A DNA stretch of 64,000 bases from Methylotenera sp. GTDB lineage: Bacteria; Pseudomonadota; Gammaproteobacteria; Burkholderiales; Methylophilaceae. The DNA lies in assembly GCA_009693255.1 (NCBI GenBank), contig SHXQ01000007.1, positions 1 to 64,000 of the forward strand, given 5' to 3'. The notes under the pieces were generated by a model. It had not been told where the DNA came from, did no database searches, and was given only the letters and a program-made list of their open reading frames with translations. The first letter of the stretch is position 1. Every line of letters begins with the position of its first letter. Positions 29,099 through 40,293 of this stretch are shown one piece after another. Position numbers and translations under genes: made by a program.

Positions 29099-31816
29099 AT
29101 GATTTCAACGTTGTTCAAAAAAATATTCGGTAGCCGTAACGAAAGGCTAGTCAAACAGTATGCGCAAAAAGTACAAAACATCAATGCCCTAGAACCTGCC
29201 ATGCAGGCGCTATCTGATGAGGCGCTTAAAACGAAGACTGCAGAGTTTAAACAACGCTACGCCAATGGTGAAACTTTAGATCAGCTATTGCCTGAGGCCT
29301 TTGCCGTGGTGCGTGAAGGTAGTCAGCGTGTGCTAGGCATGCGGCATTTTGACGTGCAAATGATTGGGGGCATGGTGCTTAATGCCGGAAAAATTGGTGA
29401 AATGCGTACTGGTGAAGGTAAAACTTTAGTCGCGACCTTGGCCGTTTACTTAAACGCACTGGCTAGTAATGGCGTGCATGTGGTGACGGTGAACGATTAC
29501 CTTGCTAAGCGCGATGCTGAATGGATGGGCAAGCTTTATAATTTCTTAGGCTTGTCTATAGGGATTAACCTTTCGCAAATGCCTAACGATGTTAAGCGTC
29601 AAGCTTATGCTGCAGATATTACTTACGGCACTAATAACGAATATGGTTTCGACTATTTGCGTGACAACATGGTGCACAACTGTGAAGAGCGCGTCCAACG
29701 AGGTTTGAGTTACGCGCTGATTGATGAGGTGGATTCAATCTTAATCGATGAAGCCCGTACGCCGTTGATTATTTCAGGTCAAGCCGATGATAGCATTGCG
29801 CTCTATAGCCAAATCAATACGGTGGCGACAAAGTTGGTGCCACAAACGGAAGAAGAAGGCGCTGGGGATTTTTGGGTTGATGAAAAAGCTCAAAATGTCG
29901 TGATGTCTGAACAGGGCCATGAGCACGCAGAAGACCTACTGACTACATCCGGCTTGTTGCCAGAAGGGTCAAGTTTGTATGAGGCAGCCAATATTACCTT
30001 GGTGCATCATTTGTATGCGTCGCTACGTGCACGCAACCTTTACCATAGAGATCAACACTATGTGGTGCGTGATGGCGAAGTGATTATTGTTGATGAAATT
30101 AATGGCCGTATGATGCCTGGACGTCGCTGGTCAGATGGTTTACATCAAGCGGTTGAAGCTAAAGAGGGCGTTGAAATTCAAAAAGAAAATCAAACGCTAG
30201 CCTCTATCACTTTTCAAAATTATTTCCGCATGTATGCCAAGTTATCAGGCATGACCGGTACCGCAGACACCGAAGCCTATGAATTTAACCAGATTTATAA
30301 TTTGGAAACAGTGGTGATTCCAACGCACCGCCCCATGTTACGTAAAGATAATATGGATAAAGTCTATCGTACTGCGCAGGAAAAATATGCGGCTGTTATT
30401 TTAGATATTAAAGATTGTCAAAGTCGTGGTCAGCCGGTATTGGTCGGCACCACTTCGATTGAAAATTCAGAACTCATTTCACAATTATTGAATGTTGAAA
30501 AATTAGAACATCAAGTGCTGAATGCTAAGCAGCACGAGCGAGAAGCGCATGTGATTGCTCAAGCGGGCCGGCCTGGGGTGATTACCATTGCCACCAACAT
30601 GGCTGGTCGTGGTACCGACATCGTATTGGGCGGTAACCCTGAATCAGATATTGAGTTGGTTAAACATGATGCAGCGCTTACAGACGCAGAAAAAGAAACC
30701 CGTATCGCTACACTTAAAGCGGAATGGCAGCAGCGGCATGACGCAGTATTAGCCGCTGGAGGCTTGCATATTGCCGGTACCGAGCGCCATGAATCTCGTC
30801 GTATCGATAATCAGTTGCGTGGTCGTTCAGGTCGCCAAGGGGATGCGGGCTCAAGTCGCTTCTATCTTTCATTAGAAGATCAGCTATTACGTATTTTTGC
30901 TTCTGACCGCGTTTCGGCCATTATGGAAAAGCTTAATATGCCTGAAGGCGAGGCCATTGAACACCCATGGGTGACGCGTGCCATTGAAAATGCCCAGCGT
31001 AAAGTTGAAGGCCGTAACTTCGATATTCGTAAACAACTACTTGAATACGATGACGTGGCAAATGACCAACGCAAAGTGATTTACGAGCAAAGGAATGAGT
31101 TGTTGGAAGCTGCTGATGTCGGCGACACCATACAGGCGATGCGTGAAGATGTGCTTGTCAGCATGATTGCAACACACATTCCACCCAATAGCGTTGAAGA
31201 GTTATGGGATGTGCCTAGTTTGGAAAAAGAGCTTAAGGCAGAAACCGGCCTTGAAATTGCACTGCAAAAAATGCTGGAAGATAATCCTGACTTACATGAA
31301 GAAACGCTACGCGATCGCATTATTGAGGCGGCTAACGGCACTTATGTTGCTAAAGAAGCGCAGGCAAGTGCAGATATTATGCGTCAGTTTGAGCGTTCAG
31401 TGATGTTGCAAAGCTTGGACAACCATTGGCGTGAGCATTTGGCCGCGCTGGATCATTTACGTCAAGGCATCCATTTGCGTTCGTATGCGCAAAAAAATCC
31501 TAAGCAAGAATACAAGCGCGAGGCATTTGAGTTGTTTGAAGGCTTGTTGAATGCAGTGAAAAGCGAAGTGACCAAAGTGACCATGTTGGTGCAGGTTAAA
31601 AACGAGGCCGATGTTGAAGCGGTGGAAAAACCGGTTGAAGTGGCAAATGTGCAATACCAACACGCGGATTACGATGAGGCTTCAGCCAACCCTGCCGATG
31701 ATGCTGAGTTTAGTGCGCAGCCTATGGTGCGTGAAGGTCTAAAAGTAGGGCGTAATGATCCTTGCCCATGTGGGTCTGGTAAAAAATACAAGCAATGTCA
31801 TGGTGTTTTAAGCTAA
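29099..31816 (+). CDS. secA: preprotein translocase ATPase SecA
   Basis: Motor of Sec export. The 905-residue product is full length. Walker A is MRTGEGKT (residues 102-109), and [12 protein letters not shown] forms Walker B near residue 207. The NBD2 block [15 protein letters not shown] and the helical scaffold are intact. The C-terminal zinc site is [14 protein letters not shown]. The downstream DUF1289 gene starts 20 bp after the stop. secY/secE are elsewhere, but secDF-yajC lie at 55250-58491. Confidence 0.98.
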
Positions 31817-31836
31817 ATCAGAACGGAAGTTTGAAT

Positions 31837-32037
31837 ATGTCTGAAAATACACAAAATGAGATTCAATCCCCTTGTATTAGCGTCTGTACCATGGACGATT
31901 CAACAGGCTTATGCCTGGGTTGTTATCGCACAGTCGACGAAATTAAAGTTTGGCGGGAAATGAGCCAGCAACAGCAAGTAAACTTGCTGGTAGCGCTAGA
32001 AGAACGACAATTACAACAAGCACGTTTAGACGATTAA
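31837..32037 (+). CDS. DUF1289 protein with four-Cys motif
   Basis: A 66-residue protein from ATG 31837. DUF1289 pattern: SPCISVCTMD with Cys13 and Cys17, then LCLGCYRTVDEIKVW with Cys26 and Cys29. These four Cys could bind a metal or cluster, which is inferred. The longer frame to 31795 overlaps secA and is not supported. It is convergent with hvfC and overlaps its end by 4 bp. Function of the family is unknown. Confidence 0.85.
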   Translation: MSENTQNEIQSPCISVCTMDDSTGLCLGCYRTVDEIKVWREMSQQQQVNLLVALEERQLQQARLDD

Positions 32038-32828
32038 AATGTTATAGCAGTATGGTGATAAACACCAATGATGACGCCTTGCTTGCTTAAGTTGTTGAGC
32101 ATTTCCAATCCAAACTGAGTCACACTTTCTGGTGGCAACTGGCCGAGCTCATTGGCAATCACAGTGAGTGCTTGCTTACTCGTGGTGCCTTCTTGTTGTA
32201 ACAATTCAATAAGCCGGTAAGTCACAGGATTTAACTCAACAAACTCAACTAAATATTCAGCATTGCGATACACCAAAAGCAATGTCATTACTTGATCTTT
32301 AGGTTTGTAGCTAGGCGAAATCTTCTGCACGGCGTATTGGTAATTGAGTAACTGCATGGTCGGTGTAAATGCCGGTTGATATTCTAATAAATCACCAACG
32401 GGATTGATGGTTCGCTTGTTGAGATTGGCGTCAGTTTGAAGATCCGGTATGGTTGAAACGATTAGCTCCACCCATTCGTAGTGGCAAAGACTGACCAAAT
32501 AAGGCGGCAATTTTTCTCTGACAAGCAAATGCTCCTGAGATAAGTAGCTTAAAAATTCTTCAGGAATTTCCCGGAAAATGGGCGAGTTTGCCGAATGTTC
32601 GCGAAAAAATCCGCGTATTAATTTTAGCCAAGCACGCTTTCCTAGCACTTTTTGCGCTACTGGAAAACAAGCCGAAACATATTCAAATAGATTATTAAAG
32701 ACAATGTCTTTGTAAACGTCCATGCGTTTGGCGTTTACATTTTGTGGTCGAGGCTGGTTGATCGGGTCGCGAATATAGGCGGTGAATGCTTGCTGGTACT
32801 GCTGAAAGCTTGGCATAATTTTTGACAT
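32034..32828 (-). CDS. hvfC: HvfC/BufC-type MNIO partner protein (DUF2063)
   Basis: Recognition/partner subunit that cooperates with a DUF692 MNIO oxidase in modifying Cys-rich RiPP precursors. The 264-residue protein starts with the DUF2063 helical domain (FTAYIRDPINQPRP near residue 16, then RMDVYKDIVFNNLFEYVSAC). The C-terminal part has a winged-helix-like region (LIELLQQEGTTSKQALTVIA). It lies 9 bp downstream of hvfB on the same strand. No DoxX-like hvfD is present. Confidence 0.88.
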   Translation of the reverse strand: MSKIMPSFQQYQQAFTAYIRDPINQPRPQNVNAKRMDVYKDIVFNNLFEYVSACFPVAQKVLGKRAWLKLIRGFFREHSANSPIFREIPEEFLSYLSQEHLLVREKLPPYLVSLCHYEWVELIVSTIPDLQTDANLNKRTINPVGDLLEYQPAFTPTMQLLNYQYAVQKISPSYKPKDQVMTLLLVYRNAEYLVEFVELNPVTYRLIELLQQEGTTSKQALTVIANELGQLPPESVTQFGLEMLNNLSKQGVIIGVYHHTAITF

Positions 32829-32837
32829 GTTGATGAC

Positions 32838-33734
32838 CTAATTAGGCGCCTGAAATGTAGTTGTGTTAGCTATTTGATAGCTATTTTGTAAGGCTGCTAT
32901 TTTATTGACTTCATGCATCAATACGGATAAAGGCGGTATGTTGTTGTCCCGTTCTAAGCAGGTGGGAAATAATCCAAATAGTTGATAAGCCTCTTCAAGC
33001 AATGTCCACACTGGCTCAATCACATCGGTGCCATGCGTATCAATCAGTAAATCAGGCGCTTGCTGAAAATGCCCCGCCATATGTGCGTAGGCAATGCGCT
33101 CTCCGGGAATTCCGCCCAAGAACTTGTGCGCATCAAACCCAAAATTGATGCTGTTGACGTAGATATTATTGATGTCTAGATGTAATAGGCAATCTGCCTC
33201 AGTGAGTACGGCATTGATGAAAGTGAGTTCATCCATGGAGGAGATTGGTGATTGTACATAAAAAGACGCGTTTTCTACGGCGATGCGCTGACCTAAAATA
33301 TCCTGAGTTTGGCGTATGCGCGCTGCCACATATTGAACCGCCTCTTCAGTAAATGGAATGGGCAGTAAATCATACAAATAACCTTGTTTACCGTTGTAGC
33401 CATCTGTTGCGTAGCTTAAGTGTTCGGTATAAAGCGGTATTTGGTATTGCTGCAAGAATTGCTTAATTTGACTTAAGAACTCGGTATTGAGCGGCGCCAA
33501 ACCGCCCAGTGAAAGGCATAAGCCATGGCAAACAATGGGGTAGCGCTCGGCAAACCAATCAAGCTGTTTCTCTGCTTTGCCACCAATAGCCATCCAGTTT
33601 TCGGGGGCTATCTCTACAAAGTTAATGTTGGCAATAGACGTATCAGCAACATTAGCCTGCATTTGAGGTATAAGCTCACGCTTTAAGCCTAAGCCCACTC
33701 CCTTGATTTTTGAATGTGCATGATTAAACATCAC
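32838..33734 (-). CDS. hvfB: HvfB/BufB-type multinuclear non-haem iron oxidase (MNIO, DUF692)
   Basis: TIM-barrel oxidase predicted to convert Cys residues of the HvfA precursor. The 298-residue protein has DUF692 blocks GVGLGLKRELIPQ, INFVEIAPENWM, VCHGLCLSLGG, LYTEHLSYATDG, RIAVENASFYV, LHLDINNIYVNSINFG and AYAHMAGHFQ. The conserved His, Glu, Asp and Asn side chains that bind the iron cluster are visible in these blocks. It is 58 bp downstream of the precursor gene and directly upstream of hvfC. Confidence 0.93.
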   Translation of the reverse strand: MMFNHAHSKIKGVGLGLKRELIPQMQANVADTSIANINFVEIAPENWMAIGGKAEKQLDWFAERYPIVCHGLCLSLGGLAPLNTEFLSQIKQFLQQYQIPLYTEHLSYATDGYNGKQGYLYDLLPIPFTEEAVQYVAARIRQTQDILGQRIAVENASFYVQSPISSMDELTFINAVLTEADCLLHLDINNIYVNSINFGFDAHKFLGGIPGERIAYAHMAGHFQQAPDLLIDTHGTDVIEPVWTLLEEAYQLFGLFPTCLERDNNIPPLSVLMHEVNKIAALQNSYQIANTTTFQAPN

Positions 33735-33792
33735 GAGGTTAAAACAAGAGTTTTTAGTAAGCAGTCATGTTTAATCAGACTAACATTAACAA

Positions 33793-34152
33793 TTATTTTT
33801 TCTTTTCAGCGCTACATTTGCCTTCGACCGCTTTTGCTGCACCGCAATAACCTTCTTTAGTTTTTTCCATAGCGGCTTTGTCAGACATTTCTTTTTTCAT
33901 TTCCGCGCTGCATTTGCCTTCAGCCATCTTTTCAGCACCACATTTTCCTTCATGCATTTTTTTTATCGAGGCTTTTTTGCTAGCACCACATTTTCCAGCT
34001 TTCATTTTGCTGTCATTGTCGGCCACTTGATAGCCTGCGGATAATGTTTTTGCGCTAAATGGATTCTCAGCAGCAAGTGCTGGGCTTACTGCGATTGATA
34101 AGGCGAATGCACCGCTGATAGCCAGTGATATTGTTTGGTGTGTTTTGTTCAT
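33793..34152 (-). CDS. hvfA: HvfA-like RiPP metallophore precursor
   Basis: A 119-residue secreted peptide precursor. Residues 1-28 form a Sec signal ending ALAA, followed by the family-type N-terminus ENPFSAKTLSAGYQ. The core carries five Cys (55, 71, 81, 103, 113), each within [A/E]G[K/Y]C[G/S]A: AGKCGA, EGKCGA, EGKCSA, EGYCGA and EGKCSA. Such EGKCG motifs in HvfA and bufferin families are modified by MNIO enzymes and bind copper. GGAG lies just upstream of ATG. Metal identity is not shown by sequence, and the spacing between motifs is irregular. Confidence 0.9.
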   Translation of the reverse strand: MNKTHQTISLAISGAFALSIAVSPALAAENPFSAKTLSAGYQVADNDSKMKAGKCGASKKASIKKMHEGKCGAEKMAEGKCSAEMKKEMSDKAAMEKTKEGYCGAAKAVEGKCSAEKKK

Positions 34153-34178: not shown

Positions 34179-34431
34179 TTAACTCTCGATTGTACTCATA
34201 ATTCTAGTTTTTGCTACTACGCTAAGTCTTATCGTGACGTCATTCTCAGTGTCCTGTCTAATGCCTCGAACGATATCAACAAGCCAACGTAGTTGTTGAT
34301 TAAAGTGATGACACGCATTACAAATAAAAAGATGGAATTTCAACGTCATCCGATCTGACCATAGATAATGGAACCTCTAAAGACTGTGAGATCATTTGAC
34401 TAGCCTGCTTACAGTTGAGCATTAATTTCAT
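34179..34431 (-). pseudogene. zinc-binding anti-sigma factor, one-base insertion
   Basis: From ATG 34429-34431 the sequence reads MKLMLNCKQASQMISQSLE and then drifts out of frame. Removing one A (complement of T34362, in TCTATGG) restores PLSWSDRMTLKFHLFICNAC. The protein then continues through FNQQLRWLVDIVRGI to IES and TAA at 34179-34181, 83 residues in all. HLFICNAC is the H-x3-C-x2-C zinc site of small ZAS-type anti-sigma factors. As written, translation would stop at a TAA after about 38 codons. Confidence 0.82.
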
Positions 34432-34435
34432 GATG

Positions 34436-34926
34436 CTATCCTGCAATCCAATGTAGCTCTAGACATTTTCTTAATCTCATTCGGGCTTAATATAACATCA
34501 CCCAGGCATTGGTCGCAGTAATTCCGAGTACCTTACAAATATGTTCACTGTCAGTTTCAGCTACGCCGCGCATCATAAAAATTGTCGCTAATTTGTTCGG
34601 CAGTTTATCAAGCCAATGACCAGAATTGTCGAAAAAGTCATCCATACTGGTGTCAGAAGCATCTGGGTCGATTAAATCAGAAAGCGGTTGCTCGCGGATT
34701 TGTTTGCGTTGCAAATCAATAATTTTATGTTTGAGTATGCCGGTAAGCCAAGTTCTAGCAGTAGAGTCGCCTTCAAAATTATTGTTCTTGATGGCGGCCA
34801 GCAAGGTTTCTTGAACGGCATCTTCAGCTTGATGGAGGTCGCGTAGTCTTGCTAAGGCAAAGCGATATAGATAGTCTCCATGGCTATGAAGCCAGTCATT
34901 TGCATTGTCATCCCCCTAGTACTCAT
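34436..34926 (-). pseudogene. ECF RNA polymerase sigma factor, multiply disrupted
   Basis: ATG 34924-34926 overlaps the DUF1841 stop (ATGA). The G5 run at 34912-34916 shifts the frame, after which the ECF region 2 reads NDWLHSHGDYLYRFALARLR and EDAVQETLLAAI. Region 4 follows, but GHW is joined directly to LDKLPNKLATIF, where ECF group members I know carry roughly 25-30 linker residues. A TAA at 34487-34489 interrupts WVMLY-ARMRLRKCLELHW, and the natural stop is 34436-34438. Frameshift, likely internal deletion and nonsense codon make this a clear pseudogene. It precedes the anti-sigma remnant by 4 bp. Confidence 0.88.
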
Positions 34927-35367: not shown

Positions 35368-36015
35368 TTAATTTTTTAAACCGTTATATTCTTTGGCCTG
35401 ATATTCACATAAATCTTCAATACAACATTCCGCGCATTTGGGCTTACGGGCAATGCAGGTATAGCGACCATGCAAAATCAATAGGTGGTGTGCATCGTGC
35501 ATAAATTCTGCCGGTATGGTTTTGAGATATTTATTTTCCACCTCTAATACTGTTTTACCTGTCGCAAGTTTAATGCGATTGCCTAATCGAAATAAATGTG
35601 TATCTACCGCTATAGTGGGCTCGCCAAATGCCGTATTTAATATGACATTGGCCGTTTTACGGCCTACACCAGGTAAGCGCTCTAGCGCTGCCCGCGTATC
35701 GGGTACTTGCGACTGGTGCGAGGTGATTAACATTTGACAAGTGGCCAACACGTTTTTGGCTTTGGTATGATATAAGCCTATGCTATTAATGTATTGCTCC
35801 AAGCCGTGTAAGCCCAGCGCCAATATGCTTTCTGGGGTATTGGCAACGGCGTATAGTTTGTCGGTTGCTAGATTGACGGCTTTATCAGTGGCTTGTGCGG
35901 ATAAAATTACCGCCACCAACAACTCAAACGTACTGTGATGTTTGAGCTCTGTTGAGGGATTAGGAATAGCAACACTTAAGCGCCTGAATATTTCAAAGCG
36001 TTTCTCAGTATTCAT
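35368..36015 (-). CDS. nth: endonuclease III
   Basis: DNA glycosylase/AP lyase for oxidised pyrimidines. The 215-residue protein has the helix-hairpin-helix LPGVGRKTANVILN with the catalytic Lys, and AVDTHLFR with the catalytic Asp. The [4Fe-4S] motif C-x6-C-x2-C-x5-C lies in TCIARKPKCAECCIEDLC near the C-terminus. It follows rsxE by 41 bp, the classical rsxABCDGE-nth order. Confidence 0.97.
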   Translation of the reverse strand: MNTEKRFEIFRRLSVAIPNPSTELKHHSTFELLVAVILSAQATDKAVNLATDKLYAVANTPESILALGLHGLEQYINSIGLYHTKAKNVLATCQMLITSHQSQVPDTRAALERLPGVGRKTANVILNTAFGEPTIAVDTHLFRLGNRIKLATGKTVLEVENKYLKTIPAEFMHDAHHLLILHGRYTCIARKPKCAECCIEDLCEYQAKEYNGLKN

Positions 36016-36056: not shown

Positions 36057-36743
36057 CTAATGGCTGAGTATTGGTTTGAGTGGTGGCGTCAGCGTATTAG
36101 TCTTAGCTGTTTTTCTAATTTCAACCCAGTTACGCACGGCAATTAAGGTGCCTAAGCCTAAAAATGCCCCAGGCGGTAATACGGCCAGTAAGAATCCATG
36201 GTAATCAGGGATAACGGTGAGTACAAGCTGCTTAGCCTCGACGCCAAAAACTAAATCCAAACCAGAAAACAGGGTGCCTTTTCCAATAATTTCACGCATA
36301 GCGCCGAGCAAACCTAGTACGAGCGCCAATCCTATGCCCATTGTAAAGCCATCTAATATTGAAGGCACGGATTCATTTTTAGCGGCAAAAGATTCCACAC
36401 GTGCTAGAACGATACAGTTCACCACGATAAGTGGAATGAAAATCCCTAATACTTTATGTAGTGGATGCGCAAAGGCATTGATGGATAAATCAATGACTGT
36501 CACCAATGCCGCAATGACTAAAATGAACACGGGTACGCGAATCTCACTAGGAATGAATTTACGTACCGGTGATACCGAGCCATTGGCCGCCGCCATGACT
36601 AATGCGGTGGCGACCCCTAGGCTTAAGCCATTCACTGCGGTGGTGGTCACTGCTAGCGTTGGGCATAAACCTAAGAGCTGGACTACGCCAGGATTTTGCT
36701 TCCAAAGACCGTTGACTGTAATTTCTTGATAGAGATTGCTCAT
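36057..36743 (-). CDS. rsxE: Rsx/Rnf complex membrane subunit RsxE
   Basis: Integral-membrane subunit of the ion-coupled electron-transfer complex. The 228-residue protein starts with LWKQNPGVVQLLGLCPTLAV and has about six hydrophobic helices, including LGIFIPLIVVNCIVLAR (RnfA/E family signature). It pairs with RsxA. It lies 20 bp after rsxG. A short soluble C-terminal tail (KTAKTNTL...) follows the last helix. Confidence 0.96.
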   Translation of the reverse strand: MSNLYQEITVNGLWKQNPGVVQLLGLCPTLAVTTTAVNGLSLGVATALVMAAANGSVSPVRKFIPSEIRVPVFILVIAALVTVIDLSINAFAHPLHKVLGIFIPLIVVNCIVLARVESFAAKNESVPSILDGFTMGIGLALVLGLLGAMREIIGKGTLFSGLDLVFGVEAKQLVLTVIPDYHGFLLAVLPPGAFLGLGTLIAVRNWVEIRKTAKTNTLTPPLKPILSH

Positions 36744-36763
36744 GAAAAATTCTCCAAAATTCT

Positions 36764-37405
36764 CTAAACTATTTCAGCGTTCACTGCAAAAATAGATTGT
36801 TTATTTATTTCGTAAAACTGTAAAGCTTTTAAAACTGCTTCGACCACCGCTCGTGGCGTAATCGTGGCACCGACCATGTAATCAAACTTACCGCCGTCTT
36901 TTTTAACCTGCCATTTTTCAGCAGGTGTTCGCTGGACAGATTCATTATTAAATAGTTTTATCCAGTTGCCACGTGCAATATCAATGTAATCGCCCAGCCC
37001 AGGGGTTTCTTTGTGTGCCAGTACGCGAACGCCACTGATAGAGCCATCCGCACGAATCGCAATGAGTACTTTAATGTCGCCACTATAACCATTATGCGCA
37101 ACAGCTTCTAATATTACCCCCACGGTTTTATGGTTGAGTTTTGCAATGTTGGCGATAGTGGGTAAGCGGTTGCCTAATAGATCATTGGGGGCTATTGCTA
37201 CCTGCGCTTTCAGTAATTCATTATCGTAGCTATTTTCAGGCATAATTTGCTTAAATAGCGCTAATCGCGCTTCTTTCTCACTGGCTTCGATAGGCGCACG
37301 GGTGATATCAAATACATAGGCGAGTAAGAGTGTGCCGACAAAAGCAAAGGTCAGCATGGTAATGGTAGTTTTTAACGCATTTTTTAATATTGCATTGTTA
37401 AGCAT
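36764..37405 (-). CDS. rsxG: Rsx/Rnf complex FMN-binding subunit RsxG
   Basis: Periplasmic-facing flavoprotein subunit. From ATG 37403-37405 (MLNNAILKNALKTT) the product is 213 residues with one N-terminal membrane helix. The flavinylation site is the Thr in VGATITPRAVVEAV near residue 180, the S/GAT-x-T motif that carries covalent FMN. The frame extends to 37450 inside rsxD, but the start just after the rsxD stop (1 bp gap) is more natural. Confidence 0.94.
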   Translation of the reverse strand: MLNNAILKNALKTTITMLTFAFVGTLLLAYVFDITRAPIEASEKEARLALFKQIMPENSYDNELLKAQVAIAPNDLLGNRLPTIANIAKLNHKTVGVILEAVAHNGYSGDIKVLIAIRADGSISGVRVLAHKETPGLGDYIDIARGNWIKLFNNESVQRTPAEKWQVKKDGGKFDYMVGATITPRAVVEAVLKALQFYEINKQSIFAVNAEIV

Positions 37406-37406
37406 G

Positions 37407-38426
37407 TTATTTCTCGTGACCAAACACGCGTGGCTGCGTAAGGGCATCAATCAGTGGTACGCACATATTCATCAATAACACGGCAAATGCCACGCCATCG
37501 GGGTAGCCGCCATAGGCGCGGATTAAATAAGTAAGTAGTCCAACGCCAGCGGCAAAGTAGAGCTTACCTTTTGGCGTGGTTGGGCCGCTGACGGGGTCGG
37601 TAATAATGAAAAATGCACATAACATGGATGCACCGCTCATTAAATGAAACAGCGGGTTAGCAAAATGAGCTGAATCGGCAATATAAAACATCAAGGAAAT
37701 CGTGGTGAGTACCGCCAAAAATGCGGTGGGTAAATGCCAACTAATAATGCGTTGTTGGAGTAAGTACAAGCCACCTAGCAAATAGGCGCCGCTGACGACT
37801 TCTCCGCCTTTGGCGCCAAACATGCCAAATATTGGTGTCGCTGTGATGCTAGCCACAGTCTGCTTGAGCATTAATTGTGTCTTCAAGTAGTCGAGCGGTG
37901 TGGCTGAGGTGATGGCATCCACTTTAATTTCATTGGGCAGCACATTGTTGAAAATGAAATGCAGTTGGTCCATAAAGCCAAGCGGATGCTCTGCTAATAG
38001 TAATGGCGCAGGCCATTTAGTCATGATCAGTGGAAATGAAATGAGTAACACTGCGTAGCCTACCATGGCGGGATTAAATGGGTTGTAGCCCAAACCACCG
38101 TAAAGTTGTTTTGCGATGACGATAGCAAACAATGTTCCTACAACAACTAGCCACCAAGGCGCTAAGGGGGGGAGCGCTAAAGCCAGTAGCCAAGCAGTGA
38201 CTACCGCGCTCATATCCATTAAATAGGGTCGGATAGGGCGTTGACGAATTTTAAGTAAGGCAGCTTCGGCAATAATAGCCGTGCTAGTGGCGAGCGTCAG
38301 CGATACTAAAATCCCACCACCATATATCCAGGTGTAGGCCATGATGCCAGGCACTAGCGCGAGCAACACTTTAAGCATAATAGTGCTAACGGTAGGTGCG
38401 TCGGTGATGTAGGGTGAGCGGTTCAA
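37407..38426 (-). CDS. rsxD: Rsx/Rnf complex membrane subunit RsxD
   Basis: Multi-pass subunit with covalently bound FMN. The 339-residue protein has about ten hydrophobic segments. The flavinylation motif is SATPLD within AITSATPLDYL near residue 172. YGGLGYNPFNPAMVGYA and the C-terminal FFIITDPVSGPTTPKG are RnfD signatures. It lies between rsxC (13 bp) and rsxG. Confidence 0.96.
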   Translation of the reverse strand: MNRSPYITDAPTVSTIMLKVLLALVPGIMAYTWIYGGGILVSLTLATSTAIIAEAALLKIRQRPIRPYLMDMSAVVTAWLLALALPPLAPWWLVVVGTLFAIVIAKQLYGGLGYNPFNPAMVGYAVLLISFPLIMTKWPAPLLLAEHPLGFMDQLHFIFNNVLPNEIKVDAITSATPLDYLKTQLMLKQTVASITATPIFGMFGAKGGEVVSGAYLLGGLYLLQQRIISWHLPTAFLAVLTTISLMFYIADSAHFANPLFHLMSGASMLCAFFIITDPVSGPTTPKGKLYFAAGVGLLTYLIRAYGGYPDGVAFAVLLMNMCVPLIDALTQPRVFGHEK

Positions 38427-38439
38427 AAGGTTATCCTAT

Positions 38440-40293
38440 TTAATCTAGTATCTTGGGCTCGACAGACGATTTCGCTTTTTCGCGGATCGCATCAGTTTCA
38501 TTGATTTCAGTCTGAACTGCGGCACTGACGCCGTCTATATTTTTCGGCGCAAGGCCGGCTTGTGTTGCGGCTAGTTTCGCCGCCCTTGCACGCGCTATTG
38601 CTGCAGCAATCAGCGCTTGTTTATCCACAGGTTCTGCTGATGGAGCTGTTGTAGGTGTGGCGGCTAATTTTTGTGCCTTAGCCCGTGCAATGGCGGCGGC
38701 AATGGCTGCCTGCTTATCTGTCGCGGCTGACACAGTACTTCCAGCGTGAGGGGAAGATACTTTGTTTTCTGGGCTCACTTCAGGTGTCGACGCCTCGGAC
38801 GCCTTAATGTCCGATTTCCCCACCTGTGCACGTTCTGCGTGTTTTTGCGCACGCTCTAATTTCTCGCGCTCAATACGAGCCAATCTAAAATCATTGCGCT
38901 CACGGGCTAAGTCCGCTGCCTCCTTGGCTTTATCGGCTACAATAATTTCACTTTTTGCATAGCGATAATATTGCACCAGCGGGATGTCGCTTGGGCAGAC
39001 ATAAGTGCAGCAACCACATTCTATGCAGTCAAATAAGTTGTAGTCGCTGGCTTTCTCAAAGTCATCCGACTTTGAAAACCAGTATAGTTCTTGTGGTTGC
39101 AAATTGACCGGACAAGCATCTGCGCAACGTGCGCAGCGGATGCAAGGCATGGCGGGCGGTGGTGTCGGGAATAAATTAGGGGCAGCTGCGATGATGCAAT
39201 TTGCCGCTTTTGTAATAGGGACTGGGCTCTTGGGTAAATCAAACCCCATCATGGGTCCGCCCATAATGAAATGTGTGGTGTCTTTTTTAGCGCCACCAGC
39301 TGCCGTTATGAGGGATTGAAGTGGTGTGCCAAATAACACTTCAAAATTCTGAGGCTGTGCGACATTGCCAGTCACCGTCACAATGCGGCTAATGGAAGGC
39401 TCACCAAATACAAAATAGCGATAAATCGCCAACACCGTCGCTACATTAAATACTTGTATGCCGACGTCCGTTGATCGCTTGTCATTGGGAATCTCAATCG
39501 CAAGTAACAAGTGAATTAAGCGGCGCGCATCACCACTAGGGTATAGCGTAGGCACGACCTTGACGATGATGTCATTACTGATGCAAGCGCTGGTCATCGC
39601 GCTGGCGGCCTGTGGTTTGTTGTCCTCAACACCAACAATGCATTTTTCGGCCCCCAACAAATGCTGAACGATTTCAATGCCTCGAACAACTTCATCGGCA
39701 CGTTCGCGCATCAGCATGTCATCACAAGTGATGTAGGGCTCACACTCAGCCGCGTTAATCACCAAGGTGTGAATGTTAGACTTGCCATTAGTGTGCAATT
39801 TAATGTGTGTTGGGAATGTGGCGCCACCCAAACCAACAATGCCTGACGCACGCAAGCTATCTACTAGCGCTTTTTTGTCTGTATTTCGCCAGTCAATAGG
39901 ATGCAATTGCTGCCAGCTATCCTTACCATCTGGCGTTATGGTGATGCAGGTATCAGGTAGGCCGGAAGGATGCGGAATCACTTGCTCGTTGATGGCCGAT
40001 ACGATGCCTGAAGTGGGCGCGTGTATGGCGGCTGATACCGTACCTTCTGCTTCAGCAAGCATTTGTCCTTTAAGGACATGGTCGCCAACTTGCACTTTAA
40101 CTTTAGGTATATAGCCTACATGCTGGCGTAGCGGTAATGTCAGACTTTCAGGGATGGCAAGCTTACTGATCGCACGCGTGGTTGACTCGGCTTTGTGATC
40201 AAGCGGATGCACGCCGCCATTAAACGCGAAAACGTTTTTATGGGTAGCGTCGCCGCGCATTAAATTACTGGCAAAGTGGATTATTGCATGCAT
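38440..40293 (-). CDS. rsxC: Rsx/Rnf complex iron-sulfur subunit RsxC
   Basis: Cytoplasmic electron-entry subunit. The 617-residue protein has an N-terminal RnfC barrel (FNGGVHPLDHKAES near residue 24) and a flavin/NAD-binding middle domain (GLGGATFPTHIKL). Two [4Fe-4S] sites lie at CIRCARCADACP and CIECGCCTYVCP near residues 380-425. The C-terminal 150 residues are Ala/Lys-rich with two similar blocks (AAIARAKAQKLAAT and AAIARARAAKLAAT), typical of proteobacterial RsxC tails. It lies 28 bp after rsxB. Confidence 0.96.
   Translation of the reverse strand: MHAIIHFASNLMRGDATHKNVFAFNGGVHPLDHKAESTTRAISKLAIPESLTLPLRQHVGYIPKVKVQVGDHVLKGQMLAEAEGTVSAAIHAPTSGIVSAINEQVIPHPSGLPDTCITITPDGKDSWQQLHPIDWRNTDKKALVDSLRASGIVGLGGATFPTHIKLHTNGKSNIHTLVINAAECEPYITCDDMLMRERADEVVRGIEIVQHLLGAEKCIVGVEDNKPQAASAMTSACISNDIIVKVVPTLYPSGDARRLIHLLLAIEIPNDKRSTDVGIQVFNVATVLAIYRYFVFGEPSISRIVTVTGNVAQPQNFEVLFGTPLQSLITAAGGAKKDTTHFIMGGPMMGFDLPKSPVPITKAANCIIAAAPNLFPTPPPAMPCIRCARCADACPVNLQPQELYWFSKSDDFEKASDYNLFDCIECGCCTYVCPSDIPLVQYYRYAKSEIIVADKAKEAADLARERNDFRLARIEREKLERAQKHAERAQVGKSDIKASEASTPEVSPENKVSSPHAGSTVSAATDKQAAIAAAIARAKAQKLAATPTTAPSAEPVDKQALIAAAIARARAAKLAATQAGLAPKNIDGVSAAVQTEINETDAIREKAKSSVEPKILD

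Follow-up and report, generated by a model that had tools for sequence, protein, structure and literature searches.

An hvfABC captophorin locus with a broken sigma/anti-sigma pair in a small Methylotenera-like genome

We analyzed a window of 64,000 nucleotides from Methylotenera sp. (positions 1 to 64,000 of contig SHXQ01000007.1). The source is a methylotroph-like freshwater bacterium, whose genome is a draft of 1.40 Mb in 24 contigs and is 84.7% complete. According to its list of open reading frames, the window holds a complete hvfABC set on the minus strand, in the order A-B-C: hvfA (33793-34152), which encodes a precursor of 119 amino acids with five cysteines and is homologous to 28 other precursors from the genus; hvfB (32838-33734), which encodes a MNIO oxidase of 298 amino acids; and hvfC (32034-32828), which encodes a DUF2063/RRE partner protein of 264 amino acids. 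Just upstream, on the same strand, are the remains of a zinc-finger anti-sigma gene (34182-34437) and of an ECF sigma gene (34442-34912), followed by an intact DUF1841 gene (PF08897; 34923-35366), which is a conserved neighbor in relatives, and an intact nth-like endonuclease III gene (35368-36015; named from its sequence). On the other side, a DUF1289 gene identified with Pfam (31795-32037, plus strand) is convergent with hvfC, and its stop overlaps hvfC by 4 bases. Beyond nth, at 36057-40293, we recognized from the translations open reading frames that resemble an Rnf electron-transport cluster.

HvfB matches PF05114 (E = 1.5e-99) and passes the NCBIfam model for HvfB (NF003818; 394.9 bits, cut-off 360). 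HvfC contains PF09836 and PF22106 and passes NF050145 (255.4 bits, cut-off 142). Among solved structures, 3bww is related in sequence to HvfB, and 3dee to HvfC. The initial annotation had described an hvfABC metallophore locus with these coordinates, which is confirmed by the open reading frames and by the curated cut-offs that HvfB and HvfC both exceed. It had also compared the layout to HvfA and to bufferins. The first comparison holds and the second does not: HvfA had no match to DUF2282, or to any other Pfam family, and HvfB scores 264 against the cut-off of 310 for NF050167. These sequence matches place the locus in the EGKCG/oxazolin (captophorin) branch instead of Buf1/DUF2282. As a side observation, one other locus (L180, 466-2007) encodes a natural single-chain fusion of a MNIO and a DUF2063 partner (513 amino acids, with PF05114, PF09836, and PF22106), which resembles the HvfBC fusion that was engineered in PMC13419390. 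Long open frames hinted at HvfB fusions in L171 and L176 as well, but we rejected these as overlapping frames in GC-rich DNA.

HvfA begins with what appears, by inspection, to be a Sec-type signal with an ALA/AENPF-like site. Repeated xGKCx motifs lie behind the signal, and the gene is just ahead of the MNIO gene. All five of the motifs that had been described as [A/E]G[K/Y]C[G/S]A were located by alignment, on the minus strand: AGKCGA (33982-33999), EGKCGA (33934-33951), EGKCSA (33904-33921), EGYCGA (33838-33855), and EGKCSA (33808-33825). The cysteines are at positions 55, 71, 81, 103, and 113, with spacings of 16, 10, 22, and 10. HvfA is below the NCBIfam cut-offs for precursors (22.3 versus 95 for NF050188 and 19.0 versus 19.5 for NF050137), which may be a limit of these models for this genus.

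The serines after cysteine and the long spacer between motifs 3 and 4 had been proposed to mark a distinct product, but both are common in the genus, so they do not mark one: 24 of the 28 other precursors have serine after a cysteine, and 18 have a spacing of at least 16 between cysteines (at least 22 in 4). The tyrosine in EGYCGA is unusual, as had been suggested, in that none of the 28 relatives has an aromatic residue before a cysteine. A further difference is near the start of the mature peptide, where all 28 of the other genus precursors have a tandem pair of cysteines five residues apart (C-x4-C). The window's precursor has a single cysteine there, in motif 1, and the gap in the alignment is exactly five residues. 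Across a broader set of 114 credible precursors (described below), 110 have a tandem pair, which is missing from the window, L113, L143, and L162. In L113, EGKCGG occurs as five single motifs at intervals of 13-16 residues, so single-motif precursors do occur in nature. In L143 and L162, cysteines that are four residues apart (KCGNICGG and RCGTFCGG types) replace the five-residue pair; L143 is paired with an ERDL enzyme and L162 with an ERDF enzyme. The unusual features of the locus are the lost C-x4-C pair, the tyrosine, and the pseudogenized sigma/anti-sigma switch, of which the initial annotation had mentioned only the tyrosine.

A missing hvfD/DoxX gene had also been pointed out. No open reading frame for DoxX adjoins the hvf locus in the window, and the single DoxX match in the source genome is on another contig (G000:C23). 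However, this is not a special feature, as six of the eight other hvf-bearing genomes of the genus that we searched lack a DoxX gene near the operon (in G031 and G020, such a gene lies close to the operon on the same contig). Seven of eight same-genus genomes without hvf have a DoxX match of comparable score.

In relatives, the gene order is DUF1841, ECF sigma factor, anti-sigma factor, hvfA, hvfB, and hvfC, after which DUF1289 and secA lie on the opposite strand. Among the 28 other loci from the genus, 25 have a sigma match and 26 have an anti-sigma match just before hvfA. As for the loci without the full pair, the contig of L045 starts near the anti-sigma gene, L036 is from genome G015 (discussed below), and L056 has neither gene. 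Intact sigma proteins from relatives carry PF04542 and PF08281, and the anti-sigma proteins carry PF13490 (L029, L002). Comparison with these relatives indicates that both genes are broken in the window, so the intact pair that is expected of a sigma/anti-sigma-controlled hvf operon is absent. The sigma gene has lost about 23-26 codons internally, which leaves two pieces, the second of them with a premature stop, and the first ATG, GTG, or TTG in the frame of this gene is at 34804. The anti-sigma gene is spread across two different frames, and the remnants of the two genes together span 34182-34912. Elsewhere in the source genome, the one further sigma match is 26% identical (E = 2e-7). A promoter scan gave 9 sites versus 10.9 expected, or nothing above chance, and by eye, we found no promoter motif that is shared by the relatives before the sigma gene or hvfA.

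The role of the pair in relatives is suggested by Neisseria. As described in PMC2893595, sigma-E of Neisseria meningitidis and its ZAS anti-sigma factor autoregulate their own operon (NMB2140-2145), removing the anti-sigma factor switches this operon on, and the gonococcal operon NGO1948-1943 is arranged identically. NGO1945 is the 3dee partner protein (PMC12452194). Because the Neisseria operon turns on without its anti-sigma factor, the intact pair is likely to be an on-switch; by analogy, the pair probably switches the hvf operon of relatives on under stress. Smaller genomes of Methylophilaceae are reported to have fewer sigma factors (PMC6794327).

In a survey of the class, 214 of 369 genomes had a match at E ≤ 1e-60 and 117 were over the family cut-off (versus 1 and 0 of 14 control genomes). 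From part of the listed matches over the cut-off, we used 110 loci (30 + 80 stretches). Outside the genus, at least 2 of these 110 loci have sigma matches; these counts are lower bounds because the 80 stretches extend 1.2 kb beyond hvfB on its upstream side. Besides its presence in the genus, DUF1841 is just upstream of hvfB on the same strand in 26 of the 110 loci, from many families. We found no paper in the open PMC literature that names the DUF1841 family. It is not dedicated to hvf, because it is kept in genomes of the genus that lack hvf.

Although the switch is dead, the enzyme has been retained: the window's HvfB has no changes at the 103 columns that are invariant in the 28 other rows from the genus. 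Nor are there any changes at the 81 columns that are invariant across all other rows of the alignment. In pairs with the window, dN/dS was 0.04-0.09 for hvfB (4 of 9 pairs estimable), 0.09-0.17 for hvfC (5 of 9 estimable), and 0.10-0.32 for hvfA (9 of 9 estimable), with many saturated dS values.

We searched 61 genomes for hvfB, of which 37 (including the source genome) are from the genus. A relative of hvfB is present in 29 of the 37 and absent from 8. By the rough sizes of the drafts, the 8 genomes without hvfB have 1.2-2.5 Mb (six of them have 1.2-1.6 Mb), and no other of the 29 genomes with hvfB is as small as the source genome. Besides the window's state, we found four others at the same place in relatives, the first being the intact operon. 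In G015, the regulator pair is gone, HvfA has two cysteines, and hvfA begins about 50 bases after DUF1841. In seven of the eight genus genomes without hvf, nothing was detected between DUF1841 and DUF1289. G009 (L071) has the opposite loss: the sigma and anti-sigma genes are kept, hvfABC is absent, and DUF1841 is a remnant. Separately, a contig of G021 (C154) has two short hvfB-like pieces with stops, alongside that genome's intact hvfB.

A weakly supported tree of nth, DUF1841, and SecA groups the window with G015 and G020; the grouping of G015 with G020 has a support of 64, and the node that joins them to the window carries no support value. At hvfB, dS is 0.78 for the pair G015/G020 and 1.75 for the window against G015. 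Because G020 keeps both the sigma and the anti-sigma gene, the switch was probably lost separately in the window and in G015. More broadly, the locus is being lost around the window, because the HvfA of G015, the closest of the relatives that we compared, has only two cysteines and 8 of 37 genomes lack hvfB.

We also considered the enzyme's specificity. According to PMC13097082, Phe250 of FonB, next to the base Asp249, is placed against the residues that flank the substrate cysteine and is named as a determinant of substrate selectivity in captophorins; FonB-F250D accepts a Phe-variant substrate that the wild type refuses. The structure 3bww has Asp-Phe in ERDF, and the window's HvfB has ERDN (Asp263-Asn264). 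We infer that ERDF corresponds to FonB 249-250, which would put Asn264 (codon at 32943-32945, minus strand, from the alignment) at the Phe250 site. The same source reports that FonBC modifies a minimal two-repeat peptide but not a one-repeat peptide, that phenylalanine before the cysteine strongly hampers FonBC, and that when the residue after the cysteine was varied in both repeats, FonBC took only alanine besides glycine among the residues tried. Given these results, the window's motifs with tyrosine before cysteine or serine after it would be poor substrates for FonBC.

To compare this residue with the precursors, we tabulated 159 loci (our own, the genus, outgroups, and the survey, after removing three duplicates). 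We dropped 45 that lacked a credible precursor and kept 114, including, by hand, the two-cysteine precursor of G015. The pattern failed to capture the residue after ERD in 11 of these loci, and we read those by eye. The residue is phenylalanine in 68 loci, of which 7 have serine, histidine, or asparagine after some cysteine, and another residue in 46 loci, of which 36 do. (The pattern classified L178, with aspartate after two cysteines, as "Gly/Ala only.") Five methanotroph loci combine a Phe enzyme with serine motifs, and for L118 and L145, which are among the seven Phe loci, the serine either precedes the motifs or follows a lone final cysteine. A Fisher test on the whole table of 114 loci ignores kinship; outside of the Methylophilaceae and a group of methanotrophs (L008-L022), the association is weak, with counts of 2 of 63 for Phe and 2 of 8 for non-Phe (p = 0.06). 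The three precursors with tyrosine, phenylalanine, or histidine before a cysteine (the window, L143, and L164) all accompany a non-Phe enzyme. This association fits a relaxed gate in the enzyme, but it derives mostly from two clades.

Overall, we think it likely that the window, from a small Methylotenera-like genome, holds a biosynthetically complete captophorin locus of the EGKCG type whose local sigma/anti-sigma switch is gone. In this family, HvfB and HvfC convert cysteine to 5-thiooxazole, and the active state has a mixed-valent diiron cluster (PMC13419390); 5-thiooxazole is also the product that PMC13097082 and PMC13419390 assign to the EGKCG branch, and captophorin products bind copper (PMC13097082). 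By analogy, HvfC, with its precursor-binding domain, would help the multinuclear-iron oxidase HvfB act on HvfA, and the cysteines in the xGxC[G/S] motifs would become 5-thiooxazoles at most of the five sites. The modified HvfA would then be exported by Sec and would bind or buffer copper in the periplasm. In relatives, the zinc-finger anti-sigma factor would hold the ECF sigma factor until the operon is switched on under stress. Because both genes are dead in the window, expression there, if any, must be independent of the switch and would come from elsewhere, such as read-through from nth-DUF1841. DUF1841 is the simplest source, and a plausible one, because its stop is within about 12 bases of the sigma start in 18 of the 22 genus genomes for which both ends could be placed (after four duplicates were removed by hand). 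Several observations count against a working locus: the lost cysteine pair, the limits of FonBC, the two cysteines in G015, the 8 of 37 genomes without hvfB, the dN/dS of hvfA, and the lack of a promoter signal.

Alternatively, the whole locus might be decaying, with a dead regulator, a degrading precursor, hvfBC that is intact only for lack of time, and no useful product. Besides the broken sigma and anti-sigma genes, the lost cysteine pair, and the tyrosine in motif 4, this would account for the related HvfA of G015 and for the absence of hvfABC from 8 of the 37 genus genomes, six of which are of similar size (1.2-1.6 Mb) to the window's genome. We consider decay unlikely, however, given that no invariant column of HvfB has changed and that dN/dS is low for hvfB and hvfC, albeit with many saturated pairs; also, five cysteines persist in recognizable motifs, and a five-single-motif precursor without the pair is found in L113. 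It is hardly credible that the lesions are errors of sequencing or assembly in a normal, fully regulated operon, even though the genome is an incomplete draft in 24 contigs: the two neighboring genes carry several distinct lesions, including a deletion of over 60 bases, while the adjoining hvfABC, DUF1841, DUF1289, and secA all read open, and G015 wholly lacks both genes.

Could the tyrosine before cysteine and the serines after it lead to a chemically different product, or to another metal? Asn264 at the presumed Phe250 site and the excess of serine, histidine, or asparagine after cysteine in the non-Phe loci might suggest so. But serine is common in the genus, the association is mostly due to two clades, and PMC13097082 treats specificity around the cysteine as separate from the thiooxazole chemistry. 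This makes a different product very unlikely, and most of the earlier grounds for one fail, while the identification of hvfABC stands. More tentatively, and with considerable doubt, we can combine the captophorin reading with the change in the enzyme: the gate of HvfB in methylotrophs may have opened through a change to Asn, Thr, Ser, Leu, or Ile, together with the replacement of tandem EGKCG pairs in the precursors by single motifs, with serine after cysteine, about 10 residues apart, and the window's captophorin may be made without a stress-sigma switch, as a standing copper buffer of a small-genome cell.

By itself, the gene cluster is ordinary, within a known and very large RiPP family (more than 20,000 captophorin examples; PMC13097082). 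What deserves attention is the dead switch, the lost cysteine pair, and the link between Asn264 and the serine motifs. The locus is a natural experiment, with biosynthetic genes under purifying selection and a dead regulator, and its relatives stand at other stages, with an intact operon, without the regulator, without the whole operon, or with a regulator but no hvfABC. A natural asparagine variant, with matching changes in the precursor, is present as well, at what is probably the selectivity residue described in PMC13097082. We found no account of this locus in the open PMC literature, which does not prove that none exists.

The locus can be compared to three kinds of known systems and to its own relatives. 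It shares with bufferins 1 and 2 a MNIO with a DUF2063 partner, an exported cysteine-rich precursor, and, potentially, copper (PMC12452194), but it differs in lacking DUF2282 in HvfA and in having an HvfB under the bufferin-maturase cut-off. The known EGKCG captophorins are oxazolin (HvfABC of Haemophilus influenzae), fontiphorin (FonABC), and gonophorin (NgoABC), as described in PMC13097082 and PMC13419390. Like them, the window has a MNIO and a DUF2063/RRE partner, a Sec-type precursor with repeated xGKC[G], and the order A-B-C. Unlike them, it lacks the tandem EGKCG pair, has serine after cysteine in two of the five motifs and tyrosine before cysteine in one, has an HvfA below the precursor cut-offs and Asn at the presumed Phe250 site, and has sigma and anti-sigma pseudogenes but no DoxX at the locus. 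The Neisseria sigma-E/MseR operon (NMB2140-2145) also has an ECF sigma factor with a zinc-type anti-sigma factor, and the related gonococcal operon holds NGO1945; however, the Neisseria operon has a working pair and a DoxX-like gene, whereas the window has a dead pair and no adjacent DoxX (PMC2893595). The locus also resembles the 28 sigma/anti-sigma-hvfABC operons of its own genus in the Methylophilaceae: the genes, their order, and their neighbors are the same, but in the window, the regulator pair is broken and one pentapeptide motif is lost.
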